NCBI GenBank assembly: GCA_017993835.1
Contig: JAGOLX010000019.1
Span: forward strand, 1-64,000
Source of the DNA: Phycisphaerae bacterium
GTDB lineage: Bacteria > Planctomycetota > Phycisphaerae > Sedimentisphaerales > Anaerobacaceae
Direction of reading: 5' to 3'
DNA: 64,000 bases
The notes under the pieces were generated by a model. That model saw nothing but the letters and a program-made list of their open reading frames with translations, did no database searches and was not told where the DNA came from. Position numbers and translations under genes: made by a program. Positions 3,710 through 13,045 of the stretch are shown in pieces. Numbering within the stretch: position 1 is the first letter of the stretch; each line of letters starts with the position of its first letter.

Positions 3710-4014
3710 GATCAGGTTGAATGCAGGGTGGCGGCGTGGAGCGGATGAACATGGGAGAAGACGAGCCTTTCAGACTGCCGGCGTGTGCAGAGCAATACAT
3801 CGCGGAAGTCGTGCGACAGATCCGCTATCGCAAGCGCGTCCGCGAGGAGGTGCGGCAGGAACTGGCGGCGCACTTCGAAGACGAACTGCGGGACTGCGCC
3901 GACGCCCGGGAACGACAGAAACGGGCCGGGCGGTTGATCGAGGGCTTCGGCGACGCCAAGCTTCTGGCGGTCCTATGCCGGCGGGCAAAGAAACGTTGCC
4001 GCCCATTGTGGAAG
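3686..4014 (+). repeat. Direct repeat, copy 1 (junction and 5' end of paralogue 2)
   Basis: From the last codons of paralogue 1 through the HAAS domain of paralogue 2, the DNA is nearly identical (about 85-90% by eye) to 5389-5717. The match includes the non-coding junction TGAGATCAG..TTGAATGC and the ribosome binding region. It marks a recent tandem duplication or gene conversion. Confidence 0.8.
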
Positions 4015-5412
4015 AAAGCTCTTGTGCGATGCGTGCAGGTCTTGGGCATTCTGATCCTCTACGTGACCATCTGCATGTCTCCTCTGTATCTTGGCAGGGC
4101 GACCATCAAGATGGACTGTCTGAACTGGCTCAACGAGACCGCACGTGGCGGCAGAGAGGAGTCGGACAACGCGCGACCGTACTACGATAAGGCCACGAAG
4201 CTCTTTGTCGAGATGCCCGAGTGCCTGATCGAGAGCAGGTCCAGACGGCCGGGCGACATGAACGACGTCGAACAAAGGTCCCTGTCGGATTGGCTCGCAC
4301 AGAACGCATCAGCGCTGGACACGGTCAGAGAAGGCTCGCGTCGACCCTACTGCTGGGGCTGCTATCGGAGTCAGCCAATCGCATTGCCTCAAGGTACCCC
4401 GGTGACATCGGAGGCGATGATTGCAGGGGTCATGGGGGATTGCATGCCTGTGCTGGCGACCTACAGACAGCTCGCGTTCGCCGTGCAATGGCAGGTTCGT
4501 TATGAAGCGTTCAAAGGCGAGATGGACGCGGCCGTCGATGATTGCTTCGTTCTGGCCAGATTCGGCGGTCATTTCCTAGGAAATGGCTTGGCAATCGAAC
4601 AACTCGTGGGCATGGCCATTGAGAGGATGGCGAACGATTCGGTTCTGAGCCTTCTGGATTACCCCGGCGTGGACGCGAGTCTCCTTGCTACGGTCCAGAG
4701 GCGGTGGCAGGAGCGTCTCGACCGGCTGGGCACCGGAATCACTTTCGATGCGGAGAAGGGCATCTGGCTGGATCGCATTCAGCGGAGTTTTACCGACGAC
4801 GGCAAGGGCGACGGCCACGCTCTGGTGCGCGGGCCTGGCTATTGGATGTATGCATACCAGGACTTCTGGCGGGTCTTGACGTTGCGCTGTCCCACGAGGA
4901 AGGAGGCGATGGCCGATGTGGACGCGTATTACTCGCACGTGAACGAGCTTGCGACCGAGTACCCGTGGCAGTGGTCTGATCAGGATGCGCATGTAGACGA
5001 CTCGAATGATGCGTTTATGGAACCGCTCATGCCTGTGATGCAGGGCGCACGGAAGTTCAGATTGGCCGATCTCTTCCTGAAGATACAGAGCGCCAGCGAC
5101 CGCACGCTGGCTGACAGGAGCTGGCAATGGCGAACCGAGGGGCTGGCGGTACTGACTGTCCTTGCACTGCATCGATACCAGATGGAACGAGGACAATACC
5201 CGGTTGACTTGAAACAGCTCGTTGACGACGGCTACCTTCGCCAAGTCCCAAGAGACCCCTATTCTCCAGGTTCCTTAAGCTATGCCAGAACGGACAGCGG
5301 CTTCATTCTGTACAGTTGGGGCCGGGACCGGAAGGATGACGGAGGGCGCCGAGCTACAGACGCGGACAACGAGGTCGGTGACACGGTCTTTTGGCCGGTT
5401 TCTGAGGATTGA
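3751..5412 (+). CDS. HAAS-domain membrane protein, tandem paralogue 2
   Basis: This 553-residue protein has the same plan as its neighbours: HAAS helices at ~5-85 (AAHFEDELRDC, GFGDAKLLAVLCRRAKKRC), one membrane span (CVQVLGILILYVTICMSPLY), a large uncharacterised domain, and a pseudopilin-like tail (YQMERGQYPVDLKQLVDDGY, DPYSPGSLSY, FILYSWGRDRKDDGG). In-frame ATGs lie at 3721, 3745 and 3751; 3751 has the best spacing (nine bases) from GGAG at 3738-3741. The shared motif LAIEQLVGMAIE in the middle also occurs in the other two, so the large domain is homologous throughout. It is probably co-transcribed with both flanking paralogues. Function is unknown; sensing at the envelope is a guess from the PadR-HAAS context. 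Confidence 0.85.
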   Translation: MGEDEPFRLPACAEQYIAEVVRQIRYRKRVREEVRQELAAHFEDELRDCADARERQKRAGRLIEGFGDAKLLAVLCRRAKKRCRPLWKKALVRCVQVLGILILYVTICMSPLYLGRATIKMDCLNWLNETARGGREESDNARPYYDKATKLFVEMPECLIESRSRRPGDMNDVEQRSLSDWLAQNASALDTVREGSRRPYCWGCYRSQPIALPQGTPVTSEAMIAGVMGDCMPVLATYRQLAFAVQWQVRYEAFKGEMDAAVDDCFVLARFGGHFLGNGLAIEQLVGMAIERMANDSVLSLLDYPGVDASLLATVQRRWQERLDRLGTGITFDAEKGIWLDRIQRSFTDDGKGDGHALVRGPGYWMYAYQDFWRVLTLRCPTRKEAMADVDAYYSHVNELATEYPWQWSDQDAHVDDSNDAFMEPLMPVMQGARKFRLADLFLKIQSASDRTLADRSWQWRTEGLAVLTVLALHRYQMERGQYPVDLKQLVDDGYLRQVPRDPYSPGSLSYARTDSGFILYSWGRDRKDDGGRRATDADNEVGDTVFWPVSED

Positions 5413-5717
5413 GATCAGATTGAATGCGGAGTTGTGGCGTGGAGCGGATGGACATGGGAGAAAACGAGCCTTTCAAACTGCCGGCGTGTGCAGAGCAGTT
5501 CATTGCGGCGGTCGTGCGTCAGATCCGCTATCGCAAGCGCGTCCGCGAGGACGTGCGTCAGGAGTTGGCGGCGCACTTCGAGGATGAACTGCGCGACTGC
5601 GCCGACGCTCTGGAGCGAGAACAACGCGCCAGGCAGCTCATCGAAGACTTCGGCGACGCCAAGCTTCTGGCAGTCCTGTGCCGCCGGGCCAAGAAGCGTT
5701 GTCGACCCCTGTGGGGC
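5389..5717 (+). repeat. Direct repeat, copy 2 (junction and 5' end of paralogue 3)
   Basis: This is the partner of 3686-4014, offset by 1703 bases. Recombination between the two copies would delete or duplicate exactly one paralogue while keeping an intact reading frame. Confidence 0.8.
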
Positions 5718-7109
5718 AGAGCGTGGGCGCGGATGATGCAGGCCGTGGGCGTGTTCCTGCTGGTGTTCGTCCCCTACACGATCTGGTTCATCAGCGGCAA
5801 GCCCAACCCGACAATCGACTACTTACCTCAACTGAATGCTCTGCATCGTCCAAGTGGACCGGCCAAGGACAATGCCTGGCCGTACTACGAGCGGGCCATG
5901 CGTCTCGTGGTCGAACCGAATGAGACGGTTCAGAATGCCTCCTGGTTCAAATATCTGGCGCCTCCCGAGGAGCTGCTGACGCCACAAGACCGGAAGGTCG
6001 TTGAGGACTGGATCGCCGACAATCCGCTTGCATGGCTGCAATTCGAATTCGGCTCGGTACGCGGGTATTGCCATCGAGCGTATCGACGGGCACGCGGGAC
6101 GTCGAACTTGCTGGATGTTATAGACAACCCTCCGCCGGTCAAACTCAGGAGACTGGCCCAACTTGGTCTGTGGAAATCGCGTCTGGCCGTCGAGCAGGGG
6201 CGGACTGACGATGCGCTCGCCTGCTGCATGACTATCCTGCATGCGGGTGCGCATTGGCAGACGAACGCCTTTCTGATCGAGCAATTGGTGGGCCAGGCGA
6301 TCGGCCGGGAGGCCTGCCGAGAGATCCTGCGAATTGTGGCGGCAGCACCGTTGTCCGTTTCCGAATTGTCCGACTTGGAGACTCGACTGCTCCAGGTGTA
6401 CCCGCAAGGCTATCTTGGTGTGCACTTCGAAGGGGAACGACTGATGACGCTGGACATGGTCCAGTACTGCTTCACCAGTGGAGGGCCTGGAGGGGGACAC
6501 CGCGTCGCGGCTGGCTACGTGGCGGACCTCAAGGCGGCAGTCGGGGACTCGCCGCCGATGCCCGACGGGATCGCAACCTCCATTGGCGTGGGGCTCAGCA
6601 TGTTCCATGCATCGCGAAACAACACCGTCGCCAAGGTGGACCGAGTCAACAAGCGTTTACGCGAAACCACTGGGCTGTCCCCGTACGAGCGCCGTGCCGG
6701 CGGTGTTGAGGATTTGGTGAAGACAGTCGGCGGAATAGAAATGTACAGATATGCTCTGGTCTACACGCTGCTGCCGGCGGAACGGCGCGTCTCAGAATTG
6801 ACGTTTCAGAGGAGGGCGGACTATGAGGCTCTCTTAACGGTCATCGCCGCAAAGCGATACTGCTTGGAGAAGGGGAGCTACCCGCCCGATCTGGAGACCC
6901 TCGTCCGCGATGCATACCTTCGGGAGGTGCCGATGGACCCGTACAGCGGCGCACCCCTGGTCTATCGGCGGACAACCGATGGTTTCATCCTCTACAGCGT
7001 GGGACGCGATTTCATAGACAATGGAGGGGAACCAAGCCGCGACAAGGATGGTTTGGTGAAACCGTGGCGCGACAACGGCGACACGGTCTTCTGGCCGGTT
7101 GGTCCTTGA
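5454..7109 (+). CDS. HAAS-domain membrane protein, tandem paralogue 3
   Basis: This 551-residue protein starts at 5454, nine bases after GGAG (5441-5444), by analogy with paralogue 2; in-frame ATGs at 5424 and 5448 are alternatives. The N-terminal HAAS domain is almost identical to that of paralogue 2. The membrane span (MMQAVGVFLLVFVPYTIWFI) and the large domain have diverged strongly. The pseudopilin-like C-terminus is retained (YCLEKGSYPPDLETLVRDAY, DPYSGAPLVY, FILYSVGRDFIDNGG). The pattern, a conserved cytoplasmic domain with a variable outer domain, is what one expects if three sensors with different inputs talk to one PadR. That reading is inferred. It ends 102 bases before an unrelated carbohydrate locus. 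Confidence 0.85.
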   Translation: MGENEPFKLPACAEQFIAAVVRQIRYRKRVREDVRQELAAHFEDELRDCADALEREQRARQLIEDFGDAKLLAVLCRRAKKRCRPLWGRAWARMMQAVGVFLLVFVPYTIWFISGKPNPTIDYLPQLNALHRPSGPAKDNAWPYYERAMRLVVEPNETVQNASWFKYLAPPEELLTPQDRKVVEDWIADNPLAWLQFEFGSVRGYCHRAYRRARGTSNLLDVIDNPPPVKLRRLAQLGLWKSRLAVEQGRTDDALACCMTILHAGAHWQTNAFLIEQLVGQAIGREACREILRIVAAAPLSVSELSDLETRLLQVYPQGYLGVHFEGERLMTLDMVQYCFTSGGPGGGHRVAAGYVADLKAAVGDSPPMPDGIATSIGVGLSMFHASRNNTVAKVDRVNKRLRETTGLSPYERRAGGVEDLVKTVGGIEMYRYALVYTLLPAERRVSELTFQRRADYEALLTVIAAKRYCLEKGSYPPDLETLVRDAYLREVPMDPYSGAPLVYRRTTDGFILYSVGRDFIDNGGEPSRDKDGLVKPWRDNGDTVFWPVGP

Positions 7110-7211
7110 GTTTTGCAGCGGGCGGGCATAGGATGACCTCCACGACCTGCGTGGGGTGGGTTCGGTGACCCTCGCGGGACTGCTGGTTGTTTCCGGTTGC
7201 GGGAGGTTGCC

Positions 7212-8687
7212 ATGACCGAGAGAAGGTGTCCGCTGCGCTGTCACGAGCAGGGCTGTGTGAGTCGTCGCGAGTTTCTCGTAGGTACGACGGCGCTTCTGGC
7301 GGGTTCGTCCTTGCTGGCCGGGAGTTCCTCGGCGGCCGGTGATCGAGCGGCTACGGAGGCGGTCCGCCAGTGCGGGCCTGCATCGAAGTATCGGCCCACG
7401 ATTTGGGCTGCCTGTGTCCGACGAAAGGAAGACTACGGCATGCTCTGGCCGGGCGCGGTCTACAACGGTCAGACGGCTCGTGAGATATACTCCGCCAAGA
7501 TCGTCGAGACCGCCGGTGCGATCGGGGCCGGACTCAGTCTGCGAGATGAACCCATCTACAGCCTGGCGGAGGCAGACGCCTGGATTGCCCAGGCAAAGGC
7601 CGCCAGTGTCGATGGACTCGTGCTGGTGATGCTGGATCGCCAGCAGCACGCCTGGCCGACCGCGAAGAAGGTGGCCGAGAGCAAGATTCCTTCGATTGTC
7701 TACTCCCCGTTGGGCACGTCCTTCACGACCAACACGGTCAATCTGGCGACGACGCCGGGTTGTGTGGTCTATTCGACCGACGATTTCAGCCAGGCGGCTT
7801 ACGGCATGAAGATGCTCTGTGCCAGGGCCAGAATGCGCCGCACCTGCTGCGTCGTCATCCAGGGCGACAAACGCTACGATGCGACGCTTGCGGACACCGG
7901 CATCACGCTGCGGCACATCCCCGCTTCGTCGTTCATCGAGGAATACCGACAGACGCCGGACAGCGAGGCGATTGTCAAGATGGCCGATCAGTACATCCGC
8001 CGGGCAAAGAAGCGGATCGGGGCTACCCGCCAGGACGTCATCAACGGTCTCAAGAGCTACTACGTCGCCGGGCGGATTCTCGAACGCGAAGGGGGCGACG
8101 CGATCACGATGGACTGCCTGGGGGCTCTCGGCAAGATCGACGTGAGCCTGCCCTGCATCGCGTGGTCGCGAATGAACGACGACGGCATCCCGGCTGCCTG
8201 TGAAGCGGACGTCGGCGCGGTCGCGTCGCATGTGATGGTCCAGTACCTGTTCGACCGGCCGGGCTTCCAGCAGGACCCGGTGGCGGACACCGCCGACGAC
8301 ACGATCATCGGTGCCCACTGCTCGTGTCCGACCCGTTTGAATGGCTTCACCGAGCCGCCCGAGCCCTTCGACATCCAGCACCATCACGGCAATCGCGACG
8401 CGGTCCCGAGGACCATCTGGCGAAAAGGGCAGCGGGTCAGCAGTATCGATCTGCTGCCGGGGGAGGGGGAGACGCCCTCGACCATCCTTGTTTCGGCCGG
8501 CACGGTGGTTGAGAACAAACAGGTGCCTCCCAGCGGCGGGTGTGTCGTCTCGGTCAAGGTGAAGTTCGATGGCGGACAGGAGGTTCTGAGTCTCCCAGGT
8601 TTCCACCAGATCTTCTTCTACGGCGACTACAAGGAGCAGGTCCGCGACTTCTGCCAGCTCTGCGGGTTCAAGGCCCAGGTGGTGTAG
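7212..8687 (+). CDS. Tat-exported L-fucose isomerase-like protein
   Basis: This 491-residue protein starts at the ATG at 7212, shortly after GGGAGG. The N-terminus has a twin-arginine signal (VSRREFLVGTTALLAGSSLLAG), so export in folded form is predicted. The body resembles the L-fucose/L-arabinose isomerase fold: an N-terminal Rossmann-like region with repeated VDGLVLVML and SKIPSIVYSPLG type strands, and a C-terminal region with HCSCPTRLNGF, FDIQHHHGNRD and the late loop FHQIFFYGDY. Classical isomerases are cytoplasmic and metal dependent, so a Tat-exported member may act on sugars outside the cytoplasm or be a binding or ancestral enzyme form. Downstream GH30-like and TRAP genes on the same strand suggest one sugar-utilisation locus. 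Substrate unknown. Confidence 0.75.
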   Translation: MTERRCPLRCHEQGCVSRREFLVGTTALLAGSSLLAGSSSAAGDRAATEAVRQCGPASKYRPTIWAACVRRKEDYGMLWPGAVYNGQTAREIYSAKIVETAGAIGAGLSLRDEPIYSLAEADAWIAQAKAASVDGLVLVMLDRQQHAWPTAKKVAESKIPSIVYSPLGTSFTTNTVNLATTPGCVVYSTDDFSQAAYGMKMLCARARMRRTCCVVIQGDKRYDATLADTGITLRHIPASSFIEEYRQTPDSEAIVKMADQYIRRAKKRIGATRQDVINGLKSYYVAGRILEREGGDAITMDCLGALGKIDVSLPCIAWSRMNDDGIPAACEADVGAVASHVMVQYLFDRPGFQQDPVADTADDTIIGAHCSCPTRLNGFTEPPEPFDIQHHHGNRDAVPRTIWRKGQRVSSIDLLPGEGETPSTILVSAGTVVENKQVPPSGGCVVSVKVKFDGGQEVLSLPGFHQIFFYGDYKEQVRDFCQLCGFKAQVV

Positions 8688-8743
8688 AGAGGAATGGGAC
8701 AAATGGGACGGATGCACCTATTCTGCGAGAGGAGGGGTGCGAC

Positions 8744-10210
8744 ATGAGAAGATGGCCCGGTGTCGTGTGGATGACGGCGGCGCTCGCCGTTTCCGCGAAT
8801 GCGTTTGGGCAGGCGCTGGATTTCACCGCGGTCCGCGCCGGTGTGGATTTCTCCAAGCATGTCCGCGACTGGGACGGGTTCGGCGTCAACTACGTCGAGG
8901 TGGCCCAAGCCATCGACTATGCGAAGGACCCGCAGGAGTACGGCGGCCTGAGCCTGATGACCGAGGAGCAGCGTCAGCAGGTCATCGACATGGTCTTTGG
9001 CGAGGACGGACTCAAGCCGGGACTGGTCAAGATGTTCCTCGATCCGCACCACCAGCGCGAGCCCGACGGGCCCTTCGATCACGAGACCACGACCCGCTGG
9101 ATGCGATACTTCGTACGGGAAGGTCTCAAACGGACCCGCGCCCGCGGCGACGATCTGACGATCATCACGACGCTCTACGGCCCGCCCGCCTGGGCGACAA
9201 AGCAGAAATTCATGCGAGGCAGGGACCTGGACCCGGATCGCAAGCTCGATCTGGCGCGGTACATGATCGACTGGGTGCGGTACCTCCGCGACCAGGAGGG
9301 ATTCCCCGTCCGGTACCTCTCGCTGCACAACGAGGGCGAAGACTGGGCCCGCTGGCCCACCGACGGCGCCAGGGGAAATATCGGCACCGGGCACGACTAC
9401 AATATGTTCTGGCCGCCGGAACAGGTCGTGGAGTTCATCAAGATCCTGCGACCGATGCTGGACGCGGCGGGCCTCCGCGATGTCGGCGTCACGCCGGGCG
9501 AGTGCACGAACTGGTATCGCTTCAGCGCCTGGGGCTACGCGGATATGATCGCCGACGATCCGGGTGCGTTGGCGAGCCTGGGTCTGATCACCTCGCACGG
9601 TTTCTACGGTGGCACGTACGGCCGCTGGTTCGGCGAGCACCGCAGCGTCGGGACCGACATCCTCCGCGAGCAGCGTCCCGACCTGCACGCCTGGGTGACC
9701 TCGACAAGCTGGAGCAAGATGGACGCTGCGAATGTCAAAGAGATGCACGGCAATATCTACACCGCCAAGGTCAACGCGATCATCCCCTGGGCCTGCCTCC
9801 AGCGGCCGGCCAAGTGGGTCGGCGGCGATCCGAACCCCGGCACGGCATTCCGTGTATCGGAGAACGGTTCCTATGAGGTCCAGCGCGGCTATCACTACTA
9901 CAAGCAGGTTACGCGGGCGGGTCAGCCCGGGATGGCGGTGGCCAGGACGTTCGCCATGGATTCCAAGATCGCGCTGATCGGGTTTGCCAGCAACGGCACG
10001 AAGCACCCGGACGCCTTCGTCCTGGTCAATCTCGGCAAGGCGAGGAAGGTGGCTGTGAAGGTGCTCGGAGTCGGCTGCAGGTCGTTCGGACTCTTCCGTA
10101 CGGCCGACGAGCGGGAACGCTACGAGCGAGTGGGCCCGGCGGCGTTGGAGAACGACACGATCGTTTACGACGCTCCCGAGCAGTCGGCGACGACGTTCTT
10201 CGCGCAATAG
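8744..10210 (+). CDS. Secreted GH30-like glycoside hydrolase
   Basis: This 488-residue protein begins at 8744 after a strong GAGGAGGGG site; codons upstream of it in frame are not gene-like. Residues 1-22 form a Sec signal peptide. The rest fits a clan-A (beta/alpha)8 barrel followed by a beta domain, as in family GH30: GFGVNYVE early, the acid/base strand YLSLHNEGEDW (Glu at about 197), and a closing beta domain FVLVNLGKARKVAVKVLG. Where GH30 enzymes usually carry the nucleophile in a W-x-T-E strand, this protein has WVTSTSW, so the expected Glu is not obvious. It may be an inactive or mechanistically different member. Co-oriented with the isomerase-like gene and the TRAP transporter, it probably releases or recognises a sugar taken up by them. 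Confidence 0.7.
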   Translation: MRRWPGVVWMTAALAVSANAFGQALDFTAVRAGVDFSKHVRDWDGFGVNYVEVAQAIDYAKDPQEYGGLSLMTEEQRQQVIDMVFGEDGLKPGLVKMFLDPHHQREPDGPFDHETTTRWMRYFVREGLKRTRARGDDLTIITTLYGPPAWATKQKFMRGRDLDPDRKLDLARYMIDWVRYLRDQEGFPVRYLSLHNEGEDWARWPTDGARGNIGTGHDYNMFWPPEQVVEFIKILRPMLDAAGLRDVGVTPGECTNWYRFSAWGYADMIADDPGALASLGLITSHGFYGGTYGRWFGEHRSVGTDILREQRPDLHAWVTSTSWSKMDAANVKEMHGNIYTAKVNAIIPWACLQRPAKWVGGDPNPGTAFRVSENGSYEVQRGYHYYKQVTRAGQPGMAVARTFAMDSKIALIGFASNGTKHPDAFVLVNLGKARKVAVKVLGVGCRSFGLFRTADERERYERVGPAALENDTIVYDAPEQSATTFFAQ

Positions 10211-10274
10211 CGGATCTTGCGTTCTCTGACACGGCGCTCGTGTGGGGAGAGGTTCATGTGAGGGATCAGATTCT

Positions 10275-10769
10275 ATGATCGCGACCTTGCGACGGGTGAA
10301 CCTGTTCTTCGACCGCCTGCTGTATGTGGGCACGGCCGCCTCGGCGATGGCGTTCTTTGCCGTTGTGATCCTCGCAATGGCGACTCGCTGGGTCGGGCTG
10401 CGGCCGATCCACTCGTCGGTTGAACTGAGCCGGCTGTTCTTCGTGTGGTCGTGCTTCCTCGGCGCGGCCCTGGCGTACCGCCGACGGGCGCACATCGGCT
10501 TCACGTTGCTGTTCGACAGGGTCCCAGCCTCCTGGCAGCGGCGCCTTGCGGGGATCAACTGTCTGCTCGTCCTGGTGTTCGCAGGCATCGTGCTCGTGCA
10601 GTCGATCCGCGTCTGCCGGTTGTTGTGGTCGACGGTCCTGCCCATCCTGGGCATCTCACAGGGGTGGTTCTACGTGCCCGTCCCGGTTCTGTGCCTGTGT
10701 CTGCTCTCGTACACGACCGAGTTCCTCGTGGAACCGCGGACGCGGTCCGCGCCGGAGGGCGCCGTATGA
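10275..10769 (+). CDS. dctQ: TRAP transporter small permease DctQ
   Basis: This 164-residue protein has four predicted membrane segments and the DctQ pattern: FFAVVILAMATRWVGLRP in helix 1-2, SSVELSRLFFVWSCFLGAALAYRRRAHIGF with the conserved E-L-x-R and the RxxxHI turn, then two more helices. DctQ couples with DctM in a sodium-driven importer of small acidic sugars or organic acids. The start at 10275 is chosen for length; an upstream GTG/ATG at 10242 is possible. Its stop overlaps the next start (ATGA), showing translational coupling with the DctM-DctP fusion. Confidence 0.9.
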   Translation: MIATLRRVNLFFDRLLYVGTAASAMAFFAVVILAMATRWVGLRPIHSSVELSRLFFVWSCFLGAALAYRRRAHIGFTLLFDRVPASWQRRLAGINCLLVLVFAGIVLVQSIRVCRLLWSTVLPILGISQGWFYVPVPVLCLCLLSYTTEFLVEPRTRSAPEGAV

Positions 10770-13045
10770 TCCTGACCCTCGTCATCTTCTCCGCAATCCT
10801 GGTGGCGATCAGCACGCCTGTCGCATTGGCCATCGGCATCGGCTGTTGCGTCTCACTGGCGGTGTTCAGCGACATTCCATTGGCCGCGATCCCGCACAAG
10901 ATGGTCAATGGGATCGACCGATTCGTCTTCCTGGCGATCCCGTTGTTTCTGTTGGCCGGTCGGGTAATGAACGCCGGCGGGATCACGGACCGGCTCTTCA
11001 AGTTCGCACGCGTTTGGGTCGGCAGCATCCCCGGCGGGCTGGCCCACGCGAACGTCGTGGCCAGCACGCTGTTCGCGTGGATGAACGGTTCGGCGGTCGC
11101 GACGGCCGGTGGGCTCGGCGAGATCGAGGTCCAGGCGATGCGGGAAAACGGCTACGACGTGCCCTTCGCCGCGTCCGTCGCCGCCGCGGCCTCCGTGCTC
11201 GGGCCGATCATCCCACCGAGCATCCCGCTGGTCATCTACGCCGCGATGACGGAGGAATCGGTCGGCCGGCTGTTCCTGGGCGGGATCGTGCCGGGCGTGC
11301 TCATGGGCCTGGCCTTGATGGTCCTGATCCACTTCATGGCCCGCGCGAGGAACTACCCGCGAGATCGGAGGTCCAGCTTGCGCCAGAAGCTGGTCGCCAC
11401 GCGCCGGGCGATCGTGCCGTTGTTGATGCCCGTCTTCATGTTGGGCGGGATGGTCACCGGGCGGTTCACGCCGACGGAGGCGGCCGCGGTCGCTGCGGCG
11501 TACGCTCTGGCGATCAGTCTGTTCCTCTATCGCACGGTGAAGGTCCGCGACCTGCCGGGGATCTTCGTCGATACGATGATCGCGACGTCCGTGGTGACGT
11601 TCATCATCTCGACCACCTCGGTCTTCTCCTTCCAGCTCTCGGTTGCGGACGTGGGGGAGAAGCTGGGCGCCGCCGTGCTGGCATTCACGCACAACAAGTA
11701 CGTGGTCCTTTTGATGCTCAATCTCCTGCTGCTGCTACTGGGGGCCATCGTGGAAACGGGGGCCGTCCTGATCCTGTTCATCCCGATCCTCTATCCGCTG
11801 GCGACCTCGCCCGAGGTGGGTGTGGACCCGGTTCACCTGGGGGTCGTCATGGCCGTCAATCTCATGATCGGGGTGGTGACGCCGCCGATGGGGATGTGCC
11901 TGTTCATCCTGAGCCATGTCGGCAAGCTCAAGCCGGAAGTCCTGATGCGAGCCATCCTCCCTTTCCTGATTCCCTTGATCGCCACGCTAGCAGCGATTAC
12001 GTATGGGGAACGCCTGGTGCTGTTTGTGCCTGACCTGTTCCTGCCGCGAGCGGCGGTTGCCTCGCCGTCTGAGATGCCGCCAACGTGCGAGCCAGCCGAG
12101 ACGCAAACGCGGAATGAGACGGGCGGCAGGGCGCGCCTCGTCAAGGTCGGTGTGGACCACGCGAGACAGCACTCCTTCACTCAGGCGTTGATGCGATTCG
12201 GGCGCGATCTCGAAACGAGGACCGACGGCCGGTTCCGCGTCATGGTCTACTACGGCGGCCAGCTCGGCAGCGAGAAGGTGCTCCAGGAGATGCTCACGCT
12301 CGGAACGACGGAGATGACCGTCACCGGCCTGCTGAACGCCTATAATCCGCTGTTCACGCTCTTCGAAATGCCCTATCTGTACCGCGACCGGGAACATGCG
12401 ATGGAGGTCCTTGCCGGGCCGGTGATGGCGGAACTGGCGGAGTCGTTGCCGCGACATGGATTGCGGCTGATCGGCGTCTACGAGAATGGATTCCGTCATA
12501 TCACGAATTCTCGACGGCCGATCTATCGGCCCTCGGATCTCGCGGGCCTCAGGATCCGCGCGCCGGAGAACCCTGCCGAGATCGAAACCATCCGAGCCCT
12601 CGGCGCCGAGCCCATCGCCATGCCGTATTCCGACTTGTATGCGGCCCTCCTGCTCGGGACCGTCCAGGGCCAGGAGAACCCGCTCCAGAACATCTGGTCG
12701 GGACGGCTGTTCGAGGCCCAGAAGCACCTCGCGATGACCGCTCACATCTACAACTCGGCCTACGTGCTCATCAGCGAGTCATTCTGGCAAACGTTGTCCG
12801 ACGAGGATCGACAGATCTTCCGCGAGTGCTTCGCGGAATCGAGCCGCTGGCAACTGGACTTCATGAGGCAACGGGACATTGAGCTGGAGGGCCTGCTTCA
12901 GGGCATGGGTATGGAAACCACCCGGCCGGACAGACGCGAGTTTGAGGAGGCCTGTCGGTCGGCATATGACGCGGTCTTCAAGCGGCTCGGGGCACAGGCG
13001 AAGGAGACCGTGGACCAGATCCGAAACACAGGGCTGATGCCCTGA
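10766..13045 (+). CDS. TRAP large permease DctM fused to binding protein DctP
   Basis: This 759-residue protein starts with ATGA overlapping dctQ. Residues ~1-425 are a complete DctM, the membrane transport subunit with about twelve segments (FLAIPLFLLAGRVMNAGGI, GPIIPPSIPLVIYA, GRFTPTEAAAVAAAYAL, VVTPPMGMCLFIL). A hydrophilic linker of ~30 residues (SPSEMPPTCEPAETQTRNE) leads straight into a full DctP solute-binding domain at ~457-759: VYYGGQLGSEKVLQEMLTLGT, the substrate-binding arginine region DLAGLRIRAPENP, and QGQENPLQNIW. DctP is normally a separate periplasmic protein with its own signal peptide, absent here; the preceding membrane helix would have to place it outside. No stop or frame break separates the parts. 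The ligand is probably a sugar acid, judged only from the family and neighbours. Confidence 0.9.
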   Translation: MILTLVIFSAILVAISTPVALAIGIGCCVSLAVFSDIPLAAIPHKMVNGIDRFVFLAIPLFLLAGRVMNAGGITDRLFKFARVWVGSIPGGLAHANVVASTLFAWMNGSAVATAGGLGEIEVQAMRENGYDVPFAASVAAAASVLGPIIPPSIPLVIYAAMTEESVGRLFLGGIVPGVLMGLALMVLIHFMARARNYPRDRRSSLRQKLVATRRAIVPLLMPVFMLGGMVTGRFTPTEAAAVAAAYALAISLFLYRTVKVRDLPGIFVDTMIATSVVTFIISTTSVFSFQLSVADVGEKLGAAVLAFTHNKYVVLLMLNLLLLLLGAIVETGAVLILFIPILYPLATSPEVGVDPVHLGVVMAVNLMIGVVTPPMGMCLFILSHVGKLKPEVLMRAILPFLIPLIATLAAITYGERLVLFVPDLFLPRAAVASPSEMPPTCEPAETQTRNETGGRARLVKVGVDHARQHSFTQALMRFGRDLETRTDGRFRVMVYYGGQLGSEKVLQEMLTLGTTEMTVTGLLNAYNPLFTLFEMPYLYRDREHAMEVLAGPVMAELAESLPRHGLRLIGVYENGFRHITNSRRPIYRPSDLAGLRIRAPENPAEIETIRALGAEPIAMPYSDLYAALLLGTVQGQENPLQNIWSGRLFEAQKHLAMTAHIYNSAYVLISESFWQTLSDEDRQIFRECFAESSRWQLDFMRQRDIELEGLLQGMGMETTRPDRREFEEACRSAYDAVFKRLGAQAKETVDQIRNTGLMP

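Follow-up and report, generated by a model that had tools for sequence, protein, structure and literature searches.

A planctomycete TRAP transporter locus in which the permease DctM and the receptor DctP share one open reading frame

In TRAP transporters the solute receptor, DctP, is normally a free-floating protein, a state that permits the receptor to be present in excess. Here, we describe a locus from a Phycisphaerae bacterium in which DctM, a linker and DctP are encoded within a single open frame directly downstream of dctQ. Judged from its sequence, this locus probably specifies a DctP-type TRAP importer with just two protein chains, one being DctQ and the other a DctM-DctP fusion, so that the receptor is covalently tethered to the permease. 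A DctM-family permease, an adjoining DctQ and a DctP-family receptor possessing the ligand-clamping arginine are all present. The features of the locus are listed in Table 1, in which positions refer to the window, the whole 64,000-nucleotide stretch of DNA that was analysed (contig C67 of the draft genome).

Table 1. Coordinates of the dctQ gene and of the parts of the fusion frame in the window
Feature	Position	Strand	Basis
DctQ small permease subunit, separate gene	10242..10769	+	Pfam DctQ PF04290, 81 bits
DctM-linker-DctP fusion, 759 aa, single open frame	10766..13045	+	translation, Pfam, NCBIfam, UBA2218 orthologue
DctM domain, residues 1-427	10766..12046	+	Pfam, SiaM alignment, end of unfused Saprospiraceae DctM
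Linker, about residues 428-457	12047..12136	+	comparison with UBA2218 (G005), pLDDT
DctP receptor domain (residues about 458-759), lacking a signal peptide	12137..13042	+	Pfam, structure match, Arg598

The translated fusion frame is free of stops, and the two other frames of the same DNA contain 29 and 7. In hmmscan searches the Pfam model for DctM (PF06808) matched residues 9-413 of the fusion with 350 bits, spanning model positions 4-409 of 413, and that for DctP (PF03480) matched residues 466-739 with 249 bits (model positions 6-284 of 286). The NCBIfam models for dctM (residues 17-422) and dctP (residues 464-704) both scored above their cut-offs, the DctM part reaching 388 bits against a TIGR00786 cut-off of 268. 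Translation, Pfam and NCBIfam thus confirm the proposal of a first-pass annotation that one 759-residue frame holds a complete DctM and a complete DctP. Comparison with unfused relatives bears out its linker of about 30 residues and shifts the bounds slightly, the end of DctM from about residue 425 to about 427 and the start of mature DctP from about 457 to about 456-459. The start codon of the fusion and the stop codon of the upstream dctQ share the sequence ATGA. The dctQ frame begins with a GTG at 10242, has a further in-frame ATG at 10275, and its product matches the NCBIfam YiaM-like model with a score below the cut-off of that model.

Because the window belongs to a multi-contig draft genome (6.37 Mb, 115 contigs, 2.96% contamination), an artefactual join of two separate genes by a missed stop or a frameshift has to be weighed. 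The first-pass annotation had called for a search for the same architecture in related genomes and for a check, at the level of reads, for a stop or frameshift in the linker. The architecture was found in a second species of the same genus, Phycisphaerales bacterium UBA2218 (G005, contig DCUI01000092.1), which encodes the same full-length fusion (C13:16757-19015), 78-79% identical to that of the window and without a stop. This second record is a metagenome assembly, and both organisms are apparently known only as MAGs; nevertheless, no stop interrupts the frame in either of the two species, whose assemblies are separate and whose fusions are 79% identical, and the linker, which is 35% identical between them, shows only two gaps, each of a single codon. 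The agreement of two separate assemblies stands in for the read-level check. Between the two species, changes at codon positions 1/2/3 number 59/32/137 in DctM (dN 0.096, dS 0.61, dN/dS about 0.16) and 51/38/112 in DctP (dN 0.145, dS 0.88, dN/dS about 0.16-0.17), a pattern indicating that purifying selection is acting on both domains of the fusion in the two species. Furthermore, a signal peptide is absent ahead of DctP in both, though one would have survived had two genes been joined by an artefact. With the same fusion in a second species and a coding pattern that runs through both domains, an assembly or sequencing error is highly improbable, and we reject that reading.

The absence of a signal peptide from the DctP part, as proposed in the first-pass annotation, was borne out by inspection of the junction for a hidden start: none of the in-frame codons 418, 421, 437 and 463 begins a signal peptide. 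Additionally, no segment after residue 430 is hydrophobic enough to be a membrane segment (maximum KD19 0.98). An AlphaFold2 model of the fusion, built from a 38-row alignment with DctQ left out, has a mean pLDDT of 87, and the sole stretch below 50, residues 430-453 of the linker, is predicted to be disordered. Residues 1-430 of the fusion align to the whole of Photobacterium profundum SiaM (7qha_B, residues 1-427; Z 47.5, 40% identity), and residues from about 456 to 758 match TRAP receptors (4xeq_B), with Z up to 39.0 over 300 residues. SiaM has 12 transmembrane segments and an N-out/C-out topology (PMC9971032). Since DctM aligns with SiaM from end to end and the C-terminus of SiaM lies outside, the linker should start on the outer side and the fused DctP should, by this homology, face the periplasm, as the earlier reading of the locus had required.

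In the mechanism that we propose, the linker would emerge from the last DctM helix at the outer face of the membrane, as expected from the solved homologue, and this helix, not a signal peptide of its own, would carry DctP across. The receptor would then fold in the periplasm, next to its docking surface, and transport would proceed as in other TRAP systems through binding of an acidic solute, docking on DctQM, handing over of the solute and an Na+-driven elevator step. With one receptor per permease, the apparent receptor concentration would be about 0.7 mM by the half-sphere estimate applied to OpuA (PMC11065425), in which a 24-residue linker at 0.35 nm per residue and a receptor radius of 2 nm give a radius of about 10.4 nm. 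The earlier suggestion that receptor concentration near the permease would rise with a flexible tether is supported as an expectation; the cost of the tether would be the loss of both the free-receptor excess and the sharing of receptors.

The main rival to a tethered receptor is a polyprotein in which the last DctM helix would act as an export signal and a signal-peptidase-type protease would cut after it, freeing soluble DctP. Candidate cut sites exist in the window, where AVA is followed by SPSE (residues 430-432), and in G005, where ASA is followed by APAE. In each species, then, an Ala-X-Ala motif comes immediately after the last DctM helix despite only 35% identity in the linker, and this helix is N-in/C-out by homology (PMC9971032), the orientation that such proteases require. 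However, both linkers contain several alanines, so that the motif could easily occur by chance, and the helix before it has the full length of a membrane helix, with Asp423 and Arg428 after it, and is not the short core of a signal peptide. Moreover, the relatives of the fusion needed a separate signal peptide, the loss of which is better explained by tethering. Release by a protease is therefore unlikely in our judgement, and we prefer a receptor that stays covalently attached.

Functional residues were compared in the reference numbering of published TRAP sites (R145, E170, D181, E237 and D50/K232/R292). Arg598 corresponds to the ligand-clamping R145 of PpSiaP, which is kept in all receptor sequences compared (62/62), and E238 corresponds to the M-subunit residue E237, likewise conserved (70/70 sequences). 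The counterpart of E170 is Asp623 in the window and Glu in G005. The published D50/K232/R292 docking residues are partly kept, with D51 for D50 and V293 for R292, a position that varies among unfused relatives too. The conserved docking residue D181 has Gln634 as its counterpart in both fusions, and some relatives join DctP domains to other binding-protein domains. These last two observations could be taken to mean that the fusion is degenerate or repurposed, with the tethered DctP acting as a sensor or decaying, and no longer serving as the receptor of this permease. Yet unfused receptors also carry Gln, Glu, His or Asn at the D181 position, the residues that typify a receptor are retained, and dN/dS is about 0.17 across DctP. 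We consider decay or repurposing very improbable; both fused domains look functional.

The whole genome encodes four DctM and four DctP proteins, each pair at its own locus. At three of these loci (C95, C17 and C48) a separate DctP gene lies upstream of DctM, unlike the window locus, where DctP forms the C-terminal part of the DctM chain. As the four receptors are all placed, locus by locus, the genome holds no second, free DctP belonging to the fusion locus, and the fused receptor is thus without a free alternative here.

Among the TRAP loci compared, gene order placed P before M for 61 DctM copies and M before P for 9, and 7 copies were fused (overlapping loci counted). The nearest relatives of the fusion belong to the M-before-P (Q-M-P) minority. 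One of these, from a Saprospiraceae MAG (L043), is 60% identical in DctM and 50% in DctP; its DctM ends in FLPNMLMP, at the residue equivalent to about 427 of the fusion, with a stop that overlaps the DctP start (ATGA), and its DctP bears a lipoprotein-like signal ending in LGSC. In L084 and L085, which belong to genus g221 in the phylum of the fusion, DctM ends at a stop of its own and DctP starts with a classical signal peptide (MKRFSLITFAAFCLAATIGVATA-AEFTLKVG); in L084 the separate DctP even lies in the same frame as DctM. In phylogenetic trees the two fusions group together (support 99/97 for DctM and 100/99 for DctP), the next branch comprises the Q-M-P genes of Saprospiraceae (100/99 and 99/97), and the Q-M-P genes of G347/G253 follow (97/96 and 98/95). 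This nesting is identical in the independent DctM and DctP trees and, together with the stop and signal peptide of the unfused relatives, points to a single fusion event. Most simply, the fusion arose once, in the ancestor of the two species, from a Q-M-P operon in which the stop of DctM and the signal peptide of DctP would have disappeared.

The fusion is present in 2 of 89 genomes of the family, both within one genus of nine genomes. Across 392 genomes of the phylum, no other M-P fusion appeared among the matches listed for DctP open frames and for the fusion protein as query; every listed DctP frame of at least 602 aa and several between 527 and 600 were checked, the weakest DctP matches fall outside this set, so that a fusion of great divergence might have escaped notice. 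Fusion-length DctM matches were likewise absent from 199 genomes of the family of the Saprospiraceae relative (E limit 1e-60) and from 395 genomes of its phylum (E limit 1e-97), and the best 60 plasmid matches included no M-P fusion, to the extent that gene annotation is given for them. A tblastn match on a Rhizobium etli plasmid that looked as if it covered both domains proved to be two same-frame genes with two stops between them.

Receptor genes of other architectures were also seen. The unfused DctP relative in L043 (2046-3956; JANQRV010000100.1) itself carries an ABC_sub_bind domain (PF04392, 42.6 bits) at its C-terminus, so that two unrelated binding-protein domains lie within one lipoprotein-like protein, and a second kind of double receptor occurs in a planctomycete (L045:3175-5349; G096:C552), where the frame continues from DctP into a Peripla_BP_6 domain (91 bits). 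An 884-aa frame (L040:3875-6529; G003:C60) runs from a weak pectate-lyase-like domain through a low-complexity, repeat-like stretch to DctP and is possibly a read-through of two genes. Genomes of genus g221 in family f43 (G340, G253, G347, G382 and G315; 2.7-4.3 Mb) yielded 67-130 first-look candidates for the DctM-DctP query, which suggests a TRAP-rich lineage. Upstream of dctQ, positions 7197-10210 of the window encode a protein with a signal-like N-terminus and no Pfam or NCBIfam match, and a weakly GH59-like hydrolase; the second species has this pair, identically ordered, ahead of dctQ and the fusion (L039:4328-8088), and a link of both proteins to the transported solute is possible. The frames at 3721-5412 and 5424-7109 are tandem paralogues that have a HAAS-like N-terminal region in common and then diverge.

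On balance, we lean towards the view that these fusions represent a TRAP lineage that evolved independently, with an obligate 1:1 tether of the receptor and with unfused Q-M-P precursors still extant. If so, the lineage would offer a natural experiment on the reason for the usual free state of TRAP receptors, and receptor export would have moved from the receptor's own signal peptide to the last helix of the permease. The fusion and its unfused kin, with a lipoprotein-like receptor in Saprospiraceae and a Sec-secreted one in a planctomycete genus, would form a matched set for relating tethering to the rate, affinity and direction of transport. Finally, a single-chain M-P unit may make the docked TRAP complex easier to study structurally.

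The M-P architecture itself is not new. Peter et al. (2022) reported natural M-P fusions in rare cases, with Acidaminococcus intestini (UniProt G4Q5D7) as the example, and reused the linker of that fusion to model HiSiaPQM as one chain, which models as a docked complex (PMC9352664); we found no further natural M-P fusions in the literature beyond that report. P-Q fusions (PMC8276074) and TAXI-GltS fusions of Lachnospiraceae (PMC12344293) are also on record, as are lipid-anchored TAXI receptors (Roden et al. 2023), in connection with which PMC11574862 discusses membrane tethering as a means to a higher local receptor concentration. Thus the freely diffusing receptor, which the first-pass annotation took as a standing rule broken by this locus, had already been qualified. 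With DctM, linker and DctP in one frame, the planctomycete fusion is a further example of a rare known kind. As described, the A. intestini protein is likewise a natural M-P fusion with a linker and differs in the organism. HiSiaPQM and PpSiaPQM (7QE5, 7QHA, 8B01) resemble the fusion in the fold and length of M and in the receptor fold, and PpSiaPQM also in its separate Q, but their receptor is free and secreted. TAXI-GltS unites a TRAP-type receptor domain and a secondary transporter of the elevator type by a covalent join, although the receptor is TAXI rather than DctP, N-terminal rather than C-terminal, and the transporter GltS rather than DctM. The lipid-anchored TAXI receptors are similarly kept at the membrane at a higher local concentration, but by an N-terminal lipid and without a covalent join to the permease, a case that the DctP of the Saprospiraceae relative looks like. 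The ABC importers OpuA and GlnPQ (PMC11065425, PMC8025302) also carry substrate-binding domains covalently on a membrane domain, but they belong to an unrelated, ATP-driven family and have two or more receptors per complex.
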